Below, in pieces: positions 27,433 to 35,051 of a stretch of 64,000 nucleotides of DNA. The position numbers were made by a program, and so were the translations under genes. The notes below the pieces were generated by a model. That model did no database searches. It was given only the letters and a program-made list of their open reading frames with translations, and was not told the DNA's origin. The stretch covers positions 186,001 through 250,000 of the forward strand of contig CANJMI010000005.1 of the NCBI GenBank assembly GCA_947475525.1. The letters are read 5' to 3'. Every line of letters begins with the position of its first letter. Position 1 is the first letter of the stretch. The stretch is from Polyangiaceae bacterium (lineage in GTDB: Bacteria; Myxococcota_A; Polyangia; Polyangiales; Polyangiaceae).

Positions 27433-27522
27433 GGTCGGGAAACGTTAACCACCAACCGAGCGCGGCGCCAGTCGAGGACGGGGCGTGGACGAATGCCGCG
27501 GGACGCATTAGTTTTGGAGTCC

Positions 27523-28464
27523 GTGTCGGACCTCTATTCCACCCTCGGCGTCACCCGCAGCGCTACGCCGCAAGAAATCAAAAAAGCGTACCGAAAGCTC
27601 GCCTCAAAGCTTCACCCGGACAAAAACCCAGGGCCGGCGAACGAGGCAAAGTTCAAGAAACTCACCGAGGCCTACGAGGTCCTTTCCAACGAAACGCGGC
27701 GCTCGGCCTACGACGAGTTCGGTGACATCGCGCTCCGAGGAGGCTTCGACGTCAACCGCGCGCGCGCGATGAAGAACGGCTTTCCTGGCGGTTTTCCAGG
27801 CGGCGGCATGCCGGAGGGCGTCGATATGGGCGACCTGTTCGGCGGCGCGGGGGGACAAGGGCAAGGTGGCCTCGGCGACATGCTCGGCGACCTTTTTGGG
27901 CGGGCCCGCGGTCGAGGCGGCCCCCGCCCAGGACGTGGCTACGACATCACGAGCACGGTCTCGCTCGAGTTCGCCGACGCCGTGTGTGGCACGACGGTCA
28001 AACTTACGCCGACTGGGGGCGGCGAGGGCATGTCGGTGCGGATCCCGCCAGGTGCGCAGGACGGCGGCAAAATGCGACTACGCGGCCAGGGTGGCGCTGG
28101 CCGAAGCGGAGGCCCCCCGGGCGATCTGGTGCTCACGGTCGAGGTGAAGGCCCACTCGCATTTTCGGCGCGAAGGTGACGATTTGCACCTCGATTTGCCG
28201 CTCACGCTCGCCGAGGCGTACCACGGCGGGCAGGTTCCTGTTCCGACGCCGCACGGTGAGGTGAAGCTGAGAGTGGTGGCCGGCACGCAGAGCGGGCAGA
28301 AGGCTCGTCTTAGGGGCAAAGGCGTGCACCGCAAAGACGCGGAGCCGGGCGATCTCTACGTGCGTTTCCTCGTGACGTACCCCGACGCGAGCGAAGCGAT
28401 GGCGAAACTTGTCGACGAGATTTCGGCGGGTGCCCCGGACCCACGAGCCGGGATTGCGTTCTAG
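27523..28464 (+). CDS. DnaJ-like co-chaperone without zinc finger (CbpA type)
   Basis: The 313-residue protein has a J domain (residues 1-70) with the HPD motif at 31-33, then a Gly/Phe-rich segment (FPGGFPGGGMPEGV), and two C-terminal substrate-binding domains starting near YDITSTVSLEFADAV. The four CxxCxGxG zinc repeats of DnaJ are absent, so it is the CbpA/class B type. It stimulates the ATPase of DnaK. The GTG at 27523 gives the family N-terminus MSDLYSTLG and has a GGAG box just upstream; an ATG ten codons earlier is the alternative. Its TAG stop shares CTAG with the convergent TrpE-like gene. Confidence 0.85.
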   Translation: MSDLYSTLGVTRSATPQEIKKAYRKLASKLHPDKNPGPANEAKFKKLTEAYEVLSNETRRSAYDEFGDIALRGGFDVNRARAMKNGFPGGFPGGGMPEGVDMGDLFGGAGGQGQGGLGDMLGDLFGRARGRGGPRPGRGYDITSTVSLEFADAVCGTTVKLTPTGGGEGMSVRIPPGAQDGGKMRLRGQGGAGRSGGPPGDLVLTVEVKAHSHFRREGDDLHLDLPLTLAEAYHGGQVPVPTPHGEVKLRVVAGTQSGQKARLRGKGVHRKDAEPGDLYVRFLVTYPDASEAMAKLVDEISAGAPDPRAGIAF

Positions 28465-29618
28465 CGGCGTGCGTCGGCCGTCGCGTGGGCGATGGCGATC
28501 GCGTGCAACCGGGCAGCGACGCTGTCGCGTGTAACGTCGGCGACCGTGAGAGGAGACGTGGCCTCCGAGACGGCCGCCCCCGCCGTGCACCAGAAGCTGC
28601 CGTGCTGGGCTGTGACCATCTCGTCGCCGAGCACGAACGACGCCGCGCCCCCCGGCGCAATGAAGCCCACCGACCCGCCCCACGTCTGCCGACTCGACTC
28701 TTCGAGCTGACGCAACAAGCGCAGCGCATCGACGCCCGGAGCGCCGACAGCACTCCGATGCGGCAAAAGTTTCCGCATTGCGTCCGCCATGCTCGGACCC
28801 GCCTCACGATGACGGCGCTGGTGAATGAAGGTGCGGCCGAGGCCAAAAAGCTCGAGGCGAGCCTGAACCGGACTCTCACCGAAATCGAGGTAATATCCTT
28901 GGTTAGCGTCGCTCGACTCACCCTCGACACGGCGCACCGCACGGAGCGCGCGGTAGGCATCGAACGCCTCCGCGCCGGCGATCGGCGTGGTGAACGTGCG
29001 TGCGAGGGAGAAGGCGTCGAGCTCGGACACGAAGGCTTTGGCGCGGATCGCACGAGCCTGAAATTTCTCGTCGCCGAGGTCCGCGTGAACCGTCGTCGGC
29101 TGCGCGCTCGGTTCGATCGTCGCAAGCGGCCCGGGCTCCGGCCCGTTCTTCATCTCCCACACGCAGCGCTCGGCAACCCGACCTTTGGCGGGCCCCGCGA
29201 CGGTGATGGTGTGCTCGTGGTGATCGAATACCGCCACCGTTGCCCCCGTTGCAAACATGCCGGAAGGACCTTCATCCTCGAAGAGCCGAATGCGATTCCA
29301 GAGGCTCGCGACGCTACTCGAGAAGAAGCCCACGGCCCCGAGCGCGAGCGCCGCCGCAAAGGTCTCAGGCTCGGCTTGCGGATCGAACAGGCTCGACTGC
29401 ACGCCGATGGCGTCGATGCCCGGCGGAAGCACTTCACAACTTCGCACGCGGTAGCCGAGGACCGAATAGCGCCCCGCCTCGCCGTTCGAATCGAGGGCCT
29501 CGAACAGAAACGAAGCCCGCCCCGGCGTGTAGGTCCGCAAGCGGGCGTAGGCCGTGAACGCATCGAGACCGAGAGCGTCGACGGCAATGACCGCAAGCTC
29601 GCTCGCTTCGATGCTCAT
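28461..29618 (-). CDS. Truncated TrpE-like (chorismate-binding family) protein lacking the catalytic core
   Basis: The 385-residue protein follows the order of anthranilate synthase component I but is shorter by more than 100 residues. Matching parts are SFLFEALDSNGEAGRYSVLG (36-55), the GDEKFQARAIRAKAFVSEL helix (182-200), FDAYRALRAV (219-228) and YYLDFGES (242-249). Near the C-terminus, LLPHRSAVGAPGVDALRLL (284-302) stands where TrpE has the fPaGTvSGAPK motif, followed by GGSVGFI. The segment between them, which in TrpE carries the DEKERAEH and LVDLGRNDLG catalytic and Mg-binding motifs, is absent. An active enzyme is therefore unlikely; a regulatory or binding role is inferred. It follows the REC-XRE gene by 26 bases. 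Confidence 0.6.
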   Translation of the reverse strand: MSIEASELAVIAVDALGLDAFTAYARLRTYTPGRASFLFEALDSNGEAGRYSVLGYRVRSCEVLPPGIDAIGVQSSLFDPQAEPETFAAALALGAVGFFSSSVASLWNRIRLFEDEGPSGMFATGATVAVFDHHEHTITVAGPAKGRVAERCVWEMKNGPEPGPLATIEPSAQPTTVHADLGDEKFQARAIRAKAFVSELDAFSLARTFTTPIAGAEAFDAYRALRAVRRVEGESSDANQGYYLDFGESPVQARLELFGLGRTFIHQRRHREAGPSMADAMRKLLPHRSAVGAPGVDALRLLRQLEESSRQTWGGSVGFIAPGGAASFVLGDEMVTAQHGSFWCTAGAAVSEATSPLTVADVTRDSVAARLHAIAIAHATADARR

Positions 29619-29644: not shown

Positions 29645-30253
29645 CTAGAAGGGGCCGAAGAGTTCGCGAACCTTCACCTGGAGGCCCGCGGAAATTTTGT
29701 AGAGCGACGATATCGATGCTGACGTCTCTGCGCGCTCGATTTGCGAGAGCAGCGAGACGCTGAGTCCCGTGCGACGAGCCATCTGCTTCAACGTCAAGTT
29801 GAGGTCTTTACGGTGACGCCGGACCGTCTCGCCGATCACTTTGTGGAGCTCCTCCTCGGGCGTGACGCTAAGGCCCTTCTCGCGCATCACGCGAGCTATC
29901 ACCTCGCGGAACTCGTCGACGTTGAACGGCTTCTTGATGTAGTCGACCGCATCGAGCTTCATCGAGGCCACCGCGGTGTCGAGGTTCGGATAGCCGGTAA
30001 AAATCACGACTGCGAGATCTTTGTCCTGCTTTCGGATGTCGCGGAGCACCTCGATGCCATCGCGTTTCGGCATCATCAAGTCGAGGATCACCAGGTGGTA
30101 GGCCTGCCTCTTTAGCTCCGCGGTGACGCCCGTTGCGTCGCTCATGACCTTGACGCTGTAGCCGTCACGTTCGAGGAGCGTCTGCATGTAATCGCAGATG
30201 GCGCGGTCATCATCTACGATCAGGATCCGCAGCGGAGGGAGCTCGATTGCCAT
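29645..30253 (-). CDS. Response regulator with XRE-type helix-turn-helix output
   Basis: The 202-residue protein has a receiver domain (1-125) with the acid pocket DDD near 14-16, phospho-acceptor Asp58 in LVILDLMMP, the switch Thr in VIFTGYP and the YIKKPF lysine. A C-terminal helix-turn-helix domain of the XRE/Cro family (about 135-200) follows, with LTLKQMARRTGLSVSLLSQIE. REC-XRE combinations are much rarer than OmpR or NarL types. It lies 79 bases after fbp, which follows the histidine kinase, so the kinase is a candidate partner. The DNA targets are unknown. Confidence 0.85.
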   Translation of the reverse strand: MAIELPPLRILIVDDDRAICDYMQTLLERDGYSVKVMSDATGVTAELKRQAYHLVILDLMMPKRDGIEVLRDIRKQDKDLAVVIFTGYPNLDTAVASMKLDAVDYIKKPFNVDEFREVIARVMREKGLSVTPEEELHKVIGETVRRHRKDLNLTLKQMARRTGLSVSLLSQIERAETSASISSLYKISAGLQVKVRELFGPF

Positions 30254-30332: not shown

Positions 30333-31409
30333 TCAGGCGCCGCGAAGGAACGTCTCGTAGTCCGCAACGTCGAGCTTCGAGCCGAGCGCCAGCGGAATGC
30401 GCTGATGCAACGTCTCCGGCATGACGTCGAGGATCCGCCCGTAACCCGTGCTCGCGGCGCCACCGGCCGCCTCGAAAATGAAGGCAAACGGGTTGGCTTC
30501 GTAGAGGAGCCGGAGGCGCCCGGTCTTGTTCGATGAATCGGCGGGGTAGGCGAAAATGCCGCCGCGCAAGAGGGTGCGATGGGCATCCGCGACCAGCGTG
30601 CCAACCCAGCGGAGGGTCCGGCCTCGCTTGCCGTCGGCCTTCGGACGTTTGAGCGACGCGACCCAATCCCGAATGGCGGGCTCCCATAAGTCGGAGTTGC
30701 TCTCGTTGACGGAGTAGGTGTCGCCGCGCTCGGGGACCCGAAGGTTTTCGTGCGAGAGGAAGAACTCGCCGACGGTGGGGTCGTAAGTGAACCCATGCAC
30801 GCCCTCGCCGCTCGCGAGCACGAGCATCGTCGACGAGCCGTAGATGACGTAACCCGCCGCGAGCAACTCACGACCTGGGCGGAGAAAATCGGCTTCGGTC
30901 GGCGTGCGATCATGACGCTGACCGTCAGGAAATCGGTGCAAAATACCGAAGATCGTACCGATCGAGATGTTGACATCGATGTTGCTCGAGCCATCCAACG
31001 GGTCGAACACGACGAGGTACTTCGAGGACGGATGCGACGACAGCACGCGCACCTCCTCCTCTTCCTCGGTGGCCGCCGCCGCGCAGTGATGCCGACGACC
31101 GAGCACCCGGAGAATCGTCGAGTTCGCCTCTTCGTCGAGCTTCTGGACTTGCTCGCCCTGAACGTTGGTGACGCCGGTGTAGCCGAGCACGTTCGTGAGC
31201 CCAGCTCGCCGCACCTTCGAGGAGACCTGTTTTGCGGCGAACGCGAGCTGATTCAAGAGCGAGGTGAACGCCCCCGACGCCTGGGGCCGGCCAAGCATTC
31301 CCTCGAGGACGTAGGTCTCGAGTGTGACGCCGAGGCGCGACGAGCGGGTCGATGGCGGTTCATAGAGCGACATTGGGGGCAGCGTCTGCGCCTCCCGCTC
31401 CGTCGTCAA
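30333..31409 (-). CDS. fbp: Fructose-1,6-bisphosphatase class I
   Basis: The 358-residue enzyme hydrolyses fructose-1,6-bisphosphate to fructose-6-phosphate in gluconeogenesis. The metal- and substrate-binding motif DPLDGSSNID lies at 136-145. SNKTGRLRLLYEANPFAFIFEAAGG near the C-terminus is the FBPase I signature, and ATEEEE before the motif supplies metal ligands. Length fits the family (about 330-360), with a slightly long N-terminus. The ATG at 31409 overlaps the TGA of the histidine kinase gene by 4 bases, so kinase and metabolic enzyme are coupled. Confidence 0.95.
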   Translation of the reverse strand: MTTEREAQTLPPMSLYEPPSTRSSRLGVTLETYVLEGMLGRPQASGAFTSLLNQLAFAAKQVSSKVRRAGLTNVLGYTGVTNVQGEQVQKLDEEANSTILRVLGRRHHCAAAATEEEEEVRVLSSHPSSKYLVVFDPLDGSSNIDVNISIGTIFGILHRFPDGQRHDRTPTEADFLRPGRELLAAGYVIYGSSTMLVLASGEGVHGFTYDPTVGEFFLSHENLRVPERGDTYSVNESNSDLWEPAIRDWVASLKRPKADGKRGRTLRWVGTLVADAHRTLLRGGIFAYPADSSNKTGRLRLLYEANPFAFIFEAAGGAASTGYGRILDVMPETLHQRIPLALGSKLDVADYETFLRGA

Positions 31410-32866
31410 GGTGCGGACGCACTCCCGTTCGCGGCGAAGGGAAGCTCGACCACGAAGCGCGCCCCCGCAACGCCCGGTTCATGATGGATCGCGCCGCCCG
31501 CGTCCTCGACGAGGCCGCGGCAAACAGCGAGCCCGAGCCCGGTCCCCTTGCCGACGTCTTTCGTCGTAACGAACGGTTCGAAGAGCCTACCCGCGACACT
31601 CGGATCGACTCCCGCGCCGTCGTCTTCGACCTCGATTCGAACGCCACTCGGGATCACCTTCGCGCGGATGACAACCTTACCGCCCGGCTTCGGAGCGGCG
31701 TCCGCGGCGTTGAGGACGAGGTTTAGCAGCACCTGCTCGAGCCGCTCGGGCGCCATCGCGACGCGCGGCAACTCCGGCTCGACGTCCGCTGCGAGTTCGA
31801 CCTCGCGGAAGGTCCGCTGGGGCGTGACGAGCTGAAGCACGTGAAGCACCGCGGCGGCAACGTCACCATCTTCGGGCGGCGTATCCGTCCGCTCGAAGGC
31901 ACGCCCCGGACGCGCGAAATCCAACAAATCACGGAGTACCCGCTGCACGCGTTCGGTCTCGCGCTTCATCCGAACGAGGAAATCGCGTTCCTCCTCGTCG
32001 AGGTTCGGGCTCTCGAGCAAGAGCTCTTGAAACGAGGAGATCGCCGCGAGCGGATTGCCTATTTCGTGGGCGAGCCCGGCCGACAAGCGTCCGACCGACG
32101 CGAGCCGTTCGCCGCGCACGACCGTATCCTGGGCGCGCTCGAGTTCCTCCTTGCCCGCGCTCACTTCCGCGATGGTGCGGCGCAGTTCTTCCTCCTCGAA
32201 GCGCAGTCGGGCGGTCATCGTTGCGAGCGACGCTCCGAGCTCGAGGAGCTCGCGCGCACCCGACGCCGGAGCCGTAAGCTCCCGTGCCCCCTCCGCCACA
32301 CGCCCAGCCGCGTGCGACAAACGCTCGACCGGGCCGATGACGAAGCGGGTCAACACGACGTACGACAAAAGCATCAGCGTGAGACCGAGCAACCCAATGT
32401 AGAGCGCCACGAGTCGAACGACCGGGGTCGCCCGCAGCGCGGCCGCATCGACGAGCAAGAGTGCCGCGACCGGACCGTGTGAGCCAGGCACCAAAACAAC
32501 GAGACCACCTGCCGCGACCGACCCGACGCGCCGCACCTCCTCACGATCGACCGCGACGCGCTCCGAGAGCTCCACGCCTCGGCCGATGGAGCGCTCGAGG
32601 TTCCCCTGCCGGTCGTAGAGGCCCAATCCCGCAACGCTACCGACCTCCGCCCGAGCGAGCGCCACGAGGTCCTCCGAGCTGCGAGAGCTACGAGCCTCGG
32701 CCACGTGACCGGCAACAGACCGGCCGAGCGCGCGTGCATCAACTTCCCAAATTTGCTGTAAATTGGCCTGCGTCAGGCGCTCGACGACGAGAAAAAGCGG
32801 GAGCAGCGCAAGGAGGAGCAGCGCGCCCAGGGACAACAGCAACTGCGCGCGAATTCCGAGGCGCAC
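31406..32866 (-). CDS. Membrane sensor histidine kinase (NtrB-like)
   Basis: The 486-residue protein begins with a membrane helix (QLLLSLGALLLLALLPLFLVV), then a periplasmic sensor region of about 130 residues, a second helix (VRLVALYIGLLGLTLMLLSYVVL) and a HAMP segment. The phosphorylated H-box is GLAHEIGNPLAAISSFQ. The ATPase domain has the N-box LNLVLNAADAA, G1 DDGAGVD and G2 GTGLGLAV. The GTG at 32866 gives a signal-anchor start, with GGAG 12 bases upstream. No receiver domain is fused. The downstream fbp gene overlaps by 4 bases; the REC-XRE gene follows it and may be the response partner. Confidence 0.9.
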   Translation of the reverse strand: MRLGIRAQLLLSLGALLLLALLPLFLVVERLTQANLQQIWEVDARALGRSVAGHVAEARSSRSSEDLVALARAEVGSVAGLGLYDRQGNLERSIGRGVELSERVAVDREEVRRVGSVAAGGLVVLVPGSHGPVAALLLVDAAALRATPVVRLVALYIGLLGLTLMLLSYVVLTRFVIGPVERLSHAAGRVAEGARELTAPASGARELLELGASLATMTARLRFEEEELRRTIAEVSAGKEELERAQDTVVRGERLASVGRLSAGLAHEIGNPLAAISSFQELLLESPNLDEEERDFLVRMKRETERVQRVLRDLLDFARPGRAFERTDTPPEDGDVAAAVLHVLQLVTPQRTFREVELAADVEPELPRVAMAPERLEQVLLNLVLNAADAAPKPGGKVVIRAKVIPSGVRIEVEDDGAGVDPSVAGRLFEPFVTTKDVGKGTGLGLAVCRGLVEDAGGAIHHEPGVAGARFVVELPFAANGSASAP

Positions 32867-32927
32867 AGAGGGACGGTACTCCAACTTGGCCCCGTTCGGA
32901 CCCCTCTGATACCGAAGCCTGCTGCAC

Positions 32928-35051
32928 ATGGATCTGGAAGGGCTGTTCGTCAGACTGCGGAGGCTTGCTCGGCGAGCCGGTCCGCTCTTGGGGATCGCGG
33001 CTCTCGCCGCTGGCATCGGCGTTGACGCGGTGCAGCCGAGCGAGTGGCTCTTTGTGCCGATCATCATCCTGCTGGCGGCGATGATCAGCGTTCGCGCATG
33101 GCGTCGGACACACGCCGTCGACCTCATGCGTTCGCGCGACGTCGAGATAGGTGCCCTCGTCGCACTCGCGGCCATCGCCGTCGCCGTGCACACGGACCAC
33201 CAGACCGCGGGACCAACTGGCGCACTCGTCTACGTCGCGATAGGCCTCGTGAGCGCGTTCGCTCACCCGCTCGCAACCGGCGTCGTGACGTTGGGGGCCG
33301 TCGGCTTCGAAGCGGTGCTGCAAAGCGTGGCGTTTGACGGCGTGGCCACAGCCGAGCTCGGTCGCCACGCGGCGTTCATGACGGCGATCGCGGTCACCAA
33401 CATGATGTCGCTCCGAATGGAGGTCGCCCGCCTCCGCAAGGCGTCGCGCTCGGAGCTCACCGCCGAACGCGAGCGGGTTCGCGAAGAAGCGCGCAACTAC
33501 CGCCTCCTCCGCCCGGTAGCCGACAGCGAAACCGAAGGGGGCCGTGAAGACGATCGCCTGTTCCGGTCGGGCATCGAAGAAATCGAGCTTTCCGTCCTGT
33601 TCGCGTTACGCCTGCTACGCGAGTGCCTCGGCGCCCACACGGCGATTCTCCTCTGGCTGAACGAGCGCGGAACGCAACTGCGCGTGAGCGAGCTCGTCTC
33701 GGATGCGGACGACAATGAGCTCTCGGACGGGCCCTTCTCCGCGCGCGACGGCATCCTCGGAGCGGTGCTATCGCAACGCGCCCCGGTCAGCCTCATCGAT
33801 CTTAAGCCGACCTTCGTCCTGCCGTACTACGCCGACGGTTGCCCCGTGCAGACCGTGTGCGGAGTGCCCGTCTTCGAACGGGGCCAATTGCGCGGAGTGC
33901 TCGTCGTGGACCGCCGCGAGTCGAAAGCTTTCCAACCGGAAGAAGAAGAACTCTGTGAGCAGGCAGCCCGCTTCGCAGCGCGAGCCATCGAGAACGAGCG
34001 CATGTTCTTGCAACTCGAACGAACCCGAGTCGAACAAGGCAAACTCTACCGTGCAGCCGAGCGCCTCGGCGCAGCCACCACGGAGGAAGAAGTCGTGGAG
34101 GCAGGCGTGTCGAGCGCGAGCGAGATCGCCGCGGTGGACTTCGCGGCATTTACGTCGTTCGAGCCGAGCGATCATAGCCACCTCATCCGCGCGGTGCGTG
34201 GCGACCTCGCCCCGAAGCTCGAAGGGCGGCGCTTCCCCAACAACGCAGGCCTGGTGTCGATGGCCCTACAGAATCGCCATCCCTTACCCTATCGCGGCGA
34301 ATACGACCCGAGCCACCAGATGGTCTTCGCTCGCGACCTCGCGCCCCCTCAGGTGCCCTCCCTCCTCGTGTTGCCGCTCGCGGTTCACGACGAGCCTTTC
34401 GGAACGCTGGTCCTCGGCTCGAACACACCCCACGCGTTCGACGAGGCCGCGCGCGGACTCCTCGACGTGCTGGCGAGCCACCTTGCGGTCTCACTCTCGC
34501 ACGCGCGAATGGTCCGCCTGCTCGAGGAGCAAGCAACGACGGACGGACTGACAGGGCTGCTGAACAAACGGGCGATGCTCTCTGCGGCCGAACAAAAAAT
34601 CTCCGGCGCGCGGCGTTTCGGGCGACCGCTCAGTGTGCTCATCTGCGACATCGATCTCTTCAAGCGAGTCAACGACACCTACGGCCACGATGTCGGCGAC
34701 ATCGTCATCAAGGCACTCGCCCAAGTTCACCAACGCGAGAAGCGCGTGACCGATGCGGTGGCTCGTTTCGGCGGCGAGGAGTTCGTGACCATTTGCGAGC
34801 AGACGGACGCGGAAGGTGCGCTCTTGCTGGCCGAGCGCATTCGCGACGAGTTCAAGCGGATGACCTTCCACGCGAACGGCGAGGAGGTTCACTGCACCTG
34901 CTCGGTCGGCATCGCCACCTTCCCTGGCGGCGGCCGAACGTGGGAGGAGCTCTTCAAAGCGGCGGATGATGCGCTCTATGCGTCGAAGCGCGGTGGACGC
35001 GATCGCTCGACGATTTGGGAACCGAAGCTGCGCGATCACAGCGCCGCTTGA
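32928..35051 (+). CDS. Diguanylate cyclase with membrane region and GAF-like sensor domains
   Basis: The 707-residue protein starts with four or five membrane helices (about 20-160). A helical stretch follows, then two GAF-like regions (about 220-365 and 385-525), then a GGDEF domain (about 540-700). The active-site motif is intact as FGGEEF. The allosteric inhibition site RxxD is present as RVTD exactly five residues before it, so product inhibition by c-di-GMP is expected. It makes c-di-GMP from two GTP. No EAL domain is present. It is divergent from the histidine kinase gene with 61 bases between the starts. Confidence 0.92.
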   Translation: MDLEGLFVRLRRLARRAGPLLGIAALAAGIGVDAVQPSEWLFVPIIILLAAMISVRAWRRTHAVDLMRSRDVEIGALVALAAIAVAVHTDHQTAGPTGALVYVAIGLVSAFAHPLATGVVTLGAVGFEAVLQSVAFDGVATAELGRHAAFMTAIAVTNMMSLRMEVARLRKASRSELTAERERVREEARNYRLLRPVADSETEGGREDDRLFRSGIEEIELSVLFALRLLRECLGAHTAILLWLNERGTQLRVSELVSDADDNELSDGPFSARDGILGAVLSQRAPVSLIDLKPTFVLPYYADGCPVQTVCGVPVFERGQLRGVLVVDRRESKAFQPEEEELCEQAARFAARAIENERMFLQLERTRVEQGKLYRAAERLGAATTEEEVVEAGVSSASEIAAVDFAAFTSFEPSDHSHLIRAVRGDLAPKLEGRRFPNNAGLVSMALQNRHPLPYRGEYDPSHQMVFARDLAPPQVPSLLVLPLAVHDEPFGTLVLGSNTPHAFDEAARGLLDVLASHLAVSLSHARMVRLLEEQATTDGLTGLLNKRAMLSAAEQKISGARRFGRPLSVLICDIDLFKRVNDTYGHDVGDIVIKALAQVHQREKRVTDAVARFGGEEFVTICEQTDAEGALLLAERIRDEFKRMTFHANGEEVHCTCSVGIATFPGGGRTWEELFKAADDALYASKRGGRDRSTIWEPKLRDHSAA

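Follow-up and report, generated by a model that had tools for sequence, protein, structure and literature searches.

In the Polyangiaceae, a standalone trpE gene has been stripped of the segment encoding its catalytic core, and the shortened product is almost certainly a non-catalytic descendant of TrpE that is maintained by selection. One such gene lies in the window, i.e., the whole 64,000-nucleotide stretch of Polyangiaceae DNA that was analysed, directly behind the gene of a response regulator with an XRE-type DNA-binding domain. The coreless proteins are referred to here as "gutted" TrpE, and the features of the locus are collected in Table 1.

Table 1. Features of the gutted trpE locus (window coordinates; residue numbers are those of the gutted protein)
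Feature	Position	Strand	Basis
DnaJ-like protein; convergent neighbour by which the trpE locus can be recognised across much of the family, start approximate	27493..28464	(+)	ORF, synteny
Coreless ("gutted") TrpE-like gene, 385 aa, ~80-residue catalytic core absent	28461..29618	(-)	ORF, profile searches, alignment
Remnant of the C-terminal chorismate-binding domain (PF00425 165-245); VGAPG for SGAPK, both C-terminal Mg-site Glu lost	28557..28799	(-)	Pfam, alignment
Former position of the core (residues 266-277), flanked by the strand that follows FGESP..LFG and by the SPxDAVRxxxP remnant	28788..28823	(-)	alignment
RCVWEMKNGP, residues 151-160; C-x-W-E-x3-G-P signature	29139..29168	(-)	alignment
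DHHEHT, residues 132-137; equivalent of HHEGT in M. tuberculosis TrpE	29208..29225	(-)	alignment
LFEA-X10-S, residues 38-52; counterpart of the M. tuberculosis allosteric LLES-X10-S	29463..29507	(-)	alignment
Response regulator of 202 aa ending in an XRE-type HTH; immediate upstream neighbour of gutted trpE, 26 bp apart	29645..30253	(-)	domain search
Fructose-1,6-bisphosphatase (FBPase); follows upstream of the regulator in the window's genus, neighbour only	30333..31409	(-)	synteny
Histidine kinase with HAMP, HisKA and HATPase_c domains; possible partner of the response regulator, true start uncertain	31406..33193	(-)	domain search

Among the open reading frames of the window, the gutted gene is an intact frame of 385 codons that opens with an ATG, in keeping with the original prediction, which had taken it for an intact gene and not for a frameshifted relic. 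A frameshift or an assembly artefact is ruled out by the occurrence of the same open frame in 19 genomes, and a true TrpE whose core had been overlooked is likewise ruled out, the core residues being absent from the alignment and from the open frames. A 387-aa ORF running antisense to the gene is the usual mirror frame in DNA of 65% GC. The stop codons of gutted trpE and of the convergent DnaJ-like gene overlap by 4 bp (window 28461-28464).

Profile searches point to both ends of TrpE. In the window protein, Pfam model PF00425 is matched over profile positions 165-245 of 257 only (E 8e-11; 42.4 bits, cut-off 27), and PF04715 over residues 21-56 only, at 20.8 bits, just below its cut-off of 23. 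Among the gutted members the N-domain model PF04715 is found in 14 of 16 at E 0.01 or better (best 9e-11), and the chorismate-binding model is matched by all 16. The top NCBIfam family for the window protein is trpE_most (TIGR00564), which is matched in three pieces at 59.4 bits against a cut-off of 517.7; its matches among solved structures are anthranilate and aminodeoxychorismate synthases, best over the C-terminal part. An AlphaFold2 model made from the window protein and a 74% identical relative has a mean pLDDT of 33, too low for the model to be of any use.

The extent of the loss was read from an alignment of the gutted members with 26 full-length TrpEs of the same order. The YR motif is separated from the GGxVG motif by 170 residues in the full-length proteins versus 95 in the window protein, and by 86-95 across all gutted members measured. 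The block that is missing in between contains PIAGT, DPKERAEH, LVDLARND and SHVMH, the last of which provides the catalytic His. In the Serratia enzyme, chorismate contacts Gly328, Thr329 and His398 (PMC10464499), and all three positions, in the numbering of that study, fall inside the lost block. The damage extends beyond it: in the window protein neither the lysine of SGAPK nor the second glycine in GAG has survived, and the two C-terminal glutamates are gone too. The initial description of a protein with TrpE-like ends, a missing catalytic segment and a degenerate SGAPK motif was thus accurate: the window protein is collinear with TrpE over both ends, the core is left out of the partial PF00425 match and falls into the alignment gap, VGAPG has replaced SGAPK, and the profile search yielded neither the active-site residues nor a full-length match.

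Across nearly all 19 members, as in the window protein, PIAGT, the Glu of KERAEH, the His of SHVMH, the Lys of SGAPK and the C-terminal Glu pair are absent or replaced. Judged by these residues, catalysis of the chorismate-enzyme type by the gutted protein can be excluded. Parts of the chorismate-enzyme C-terminus are still present, which might be taken to indicate a residual catalytic or chorismate-binding activity that dispenses with the core; however, with the Mg-binding Glu, the catalytic His, the PIAGT loop and the SGAPK Lys all gone or altered, such an activity is scarcely credible.

A scan of public genomes retrieved one close relative, a 74% identical protein from a Polyangiaceae MAG. 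When 183 genomes of the order were then searched, 19 proved to carry a gutted member, that of the window among them, and these represent seven genera (g1, to which the window belongs, g35, g13, g15, g47, g32 and g6), all of which fall into a single GTDB-style family, the Polyangiaceae; g47 is taken to be Sorangium. Orthologues sharing the gap had been named as evidence that would lend support, and the same gap within an open frame is indeed present in 19/19, so that the gutted form is more than a product of chance. When 377 genomes of the phylum were searched with a profile, the Polyangiaceae alone yielded matches that span the gap. Within the family, no divergent gutted copy adjoining the regulator was found in G080, G103, G112, G095, G110 or G129.

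The origin of the protein is apparent from its locus. Three sister genera (G148-153, G069, G130) have a full-length TrpE at the corresponding position, next to the same XRE response regulator, and DnaJ, rhomboid and MlaE-like neighbours are common to the G069 locus, where trpE is full-length, and to the gutted genera. The full-length protein at this shared locus is a complete TrpE: it scores 437 bits with trpE_most, under the strict cut-off of 518, and matches the anthranilate synthase 7bvd at 5e-84. Since the gutted group is nested within the full-length TrpEs of the same locus in the TrpE tree, and since the locus itself is shared, the gutted protein descends from TrpE.

What the hosts have kept of tryptophan biosynthesis differs among the gutted genomes. 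The window's genome (G000, 98.9% complete) encodes three PF00425 proteins, namely a PabB-like protein with a PIKGT signature, an isochorismate synthase-like protein and the gutted protein, and retains one TrpG/PabA-type amidotransferase. TrpA, TrpB, TrpC, TrpD and full-length TrpE are lacking in all five genomes of the window's genus (G000, G156-159); TrpA and TrpC are also lacking in the gutted genomes G115, G079, G082, G083 and G070, TrpB was not found in G079 and G070, and neither in these genomes nor in the window's genus did any TrpD exceed its cut-off. The gutted genomes G113, G114, G109 and Sorangium do have trp genes, but these are of another type and are located elsewhere in the genome. 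Their TrpD is 45-48% identical to the native protein versus 66-75% among native TrpDs, G113 has a proteobacterial-type trpE (trpE_proteo) within an operon, and a Sorangium genome encodes a TrpE-TrpG fusion (1090 bits to TIGR01815). Genomes with full-length TrpE retain native-type TrpD and TrpC. In the gutted genomes checked, core loss coincides with the loss or replacement of the native tryptophan pathway; some relatives have regained tryptophan synthesis via unrelated trp genes elsewhere, and the gutted gene is still present in them. Its retention is not automatic, since family members without TrpA and TrpC (G080, G103, G112, G095, G129, G088) have no trpE, or none beside the regulator. Few auxotrophies have been reported for the Myxococcota (PMC11988736), and tryptophan auxotrophy seems to be commoner in the Polyangiaceae than this.

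Several trp loci of these genomes stand out. In Sorangium, G163:C1:8714079-8716100 and the G163:C1:317571 region hold the TrpE-TrpG fusion and a long ORF resembling a fusion of PabB with an aminotransferase-class-IV (PabC-like) protein, and a second trpD-trpC-trpB-trpA set is found in G163 near 6.92 Mb. At G109:C2:14256-15553, a native-type trpG adjoins a partial TrpC in what looks like a leftover of the native trp cluster; the foreign trp operon of this genome is on contig C155.

The clearest sign of selection on the gutted gene is where conservation sits. Ordinary full-length TrpEs of the order have a mean pairwise identity of 0.477 in the N-domain versus 0.703 in the C-half, while the values for gutted TrpE in the window's clade are 0.51 and 0.42; the catalytic half has been released and the N-domain has not. 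Within the window's genus, NG86 gives dN/dS values of 0.15-0.27 for the gutted gene, and for Sorangium NG86 and YN00 give 0.4-0.67 and 0.09-0.16, respectively, all of them rough figures because NG86 is biased in GC-rich DNA and saturated pairs are unusable with YN00. In a simple neutral simulation that used the base composition of the window and counted stops only, 20, 5 and 1 of 2000 copies were still stop-free at 0.3, 0.5 and 1.0 substitutions per site. The catalytic residues have been lost and the gene is under purifying selection.

One might still regard the gene as a slowly decaying relic whose role vanished with the tryptophan pathway and in which a stop simply has yet to appear. Its rate of change exceeds that of the adjacent genes (74% identity with the nearest species versus 89-90% for the regulator and FBPase), NG86 gives dN/dS of 0.4-0.67 in Sorangium, and the gutted protein of G114 forms a long branch in the TrpE tree. 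However, neutral copies lose their frame quickly and 19 of 19 frames are open in seven genera, dN/dS is about 0.15-0.27 in the window's genus, there are invariant residues, the N-domain is conserved as in active enzymes, and other family members devoid of the pathway show no trpE, or none beside the regulator. A relic is therefore highly unlikely, and this explanation of the gutted gene can be considered largely refuted.

The number of core losses depends on the tree that is consulted. In the TrpE tree, which was built on shared columns, the gutted proteins form one clade (90/93) within the regulator-linked TrpEs (100/100), and a topology that groups Sorangium with a full-length genus fits less well, though it is not rejected (AU p 0.12). 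The RR-XRE tree did not resolve the species order, and rpoB was used instead; on the rpoB tree Sorangium, G070 and G109 fall among full-length genera, and a single clade of gutted genomes is rejected (AU p 0.025). This leaves two options: at least two losses of the core at one and the same place, or else a history of gene exchange or hidden paralogy. The chance is about even that two or more parallel losses with identical boundaries took place, explained by an additional non-catalytic job that the full-length protein had taken on beforehand; such a history is compatible with the regulatory role discussed below. The position of Sorangium and G070 with full-length genera on the rpoB tree argues for it, whereas the union of the gutted proteins in the TrpE tree argues for the alternative, a single core loss followed by gene exchange or hidden paralogy. 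Shared relaxation may attract the gutted proteins to each other in the TrpE tree.

Part of the N-domain that is conserved aligns with a known allosteric site. TrpE of M. tuberculosis binds tryptophan through LLES-X10-S (53-67) and HHEGT (170-174), and the S67A or H170N substitution raises the IC50 more than a hundredfold (PMC6437058). Glu40, Arg50 and Ser52 of the window protein, equivalent to M. tuberculosis Glu55, Arg65 and Ser67, are invariant in the window's clade (11/11). The counterpart of His170 is present in 11/11 genomes of this clade versus 1/22 full-length TrpEs of the order, so that it looks like a gain in the clade. Of the motifs that make up the allosteric site (LLES-X10-S, PYMF, GGxVGY and HHEGT), the Glu, Arg, Ser, His and Val are present in all 11, and PYMF is largely lost. 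This pocket floor is altered in every gutted member, its Tyr missing without exception, and the Ser67 position is occupied by Ala or Thr in the Sorangium gutted protein; in the M. tuberculosis enzyme, Ala at this site does away with inhibition by tryptophan. The tryptophan pocket is thus only partly preserved, which counts against a sensor role. An altered ligand site may persist in the window's clade; that it binds tryptophan is not claimed. The C-x-W-E-x3-G-P signature and several other residues are common to the gutted and the regulator-adjacent full-length TrpEs and absent from other TrpEs. The signature suggests a second function of TrpE that predates core loss; shared ancestry alone also predicts such common residues.

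The neighbouring regulator joins a receiver domain to an XRE-type HTH. Of the 108 family genomes, 100 encode it, nearly always in single copy and mostly without an adjacent trpE, and it thus does not need the gutted protein. In the window's clade the gutted gene starts 0-36 bp downstream of the regulator in 11/11 genomes; in Sorangium the two are ~0.9 kb apart, so the coupling is not universal. FBPase and, in two genomes, the histidine kinase lie farther upstream on the same strand in the window's genus. The regulator sequence itself is near-invariant in Sorangium and its neighbours (four genomes identical) and evolves several times faster in the window's clade.

Taken as a whole, a pseudoenzyme regulator derived from an ancestral trpE is the leading candidate for the function of the gutted protein, although its chances are somewhat below even. 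The sequence of events would start from documented steps: a standalone trpE adjoined the XRE-type response regulator gene before core loss, the core was removed in frame where the native tryptophan pathway was lost or replaced, the remainder stayed open and conserved, with the N-terminal regulatory/dimer domain replacing the catalytic half as the conserved part, and the gutted gene sits at tight spacing behind the regulator in the window's clade. Its product would then be a non-catalytic dimer in which the remains of the TrpE allosteric pocket bind tryptophan or a related small aromatic ligand, and it would in this way modulate the response regulator, for example to signal the supply of amino acids from prey. 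That the gutted protein acts with the XRE response regulator is possible, again with a likelihood slightly under one half; a joint action based on the sensing of tryptophan or a similar aromatic is more doubtful. Rather unlikely, in our estimation, is the boldest version, in which excision of the TrpE core, at least twice in parallel in one family, has created a class of sensors for aromatic metabolites, owing to a role that the full-length enzyme already had in serving the XRE response regulator, and in which the sensor outlasts the loss of the whole pathway and reports the amino-acid supply from prey.

The main alternative is that the gutted protein would be a pseudo-subunit with no link to the regulator, binding the remaining TrpG/PabA-type amidotransferase or PabB and tuning the flux from chorismate to folate or menaquinone. 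Natural partners do remain in the window's genome (the TrpG/PabA-type amidotransferase and the PabB-like and isochorismate synthase-like proteins), and a noncatalytic plant TrpB paralogue that controls TrpA provides a precedent (PMC12727527). However, the gutted gene is not adjacent to pabA or pabB, and conservation is lower in the catalytic half of the protein, which makes a pseudo-subunit improbable.

Among known systems, the gutted protein resembles TrpE (PF04715 plus PF00425; TIGR00564) in its locus, its probable N-domain, its collinear ends and its nested position in the TrpE tree; it differs in having lost some 80 residues of the core together with every key catalytic and Mg residue, and in that its gene stands beside an XRE response regulator in a genome, that of the window, without TrpD, TrpC, TrpB and TrpA. 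The TSB-like protein of eudicots, a noncatalytic TrpB paralogue that activates TrpA (PMC12727527), is likewise a tryptophan-pathway enzyme made non-catalytic and maintained by selection. However, point mutations gave rise to TSB-like, which has remained in the service of its original partner, whereas in gutted TrpE the core was deleted and the old pathway is gone. As in other regulatory pseudoenzymes (PMC5106787, PMC10211241), catalysis has been lost while a fragment of the fold and surfaces for ligands or partners have probably been kept. Pseudoenzymes derived from biosynthetic enzymes are already known. In the open-licence literature, no earlier pseudoenzyme from the chorismate-enzyme family, or one made by core deletion, was found, nor any report or earlier description of a TrpE without its core, an absence that is not proof.

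A practical consequence concerns annotation: a match to the N- or the C-terminal part would name an anthranilate synthase in bacteria that apparently do not make anthranilate. More generally, the gutted gene is a natural experiment in which the regulatory part of a textbook feedback-controlled enzyme has been separated from its chemistry. It suggests that trpE had a second job in these bacteria before the core was lost, and that the loss of a biosynthetic pathway can leave a sensor behind.
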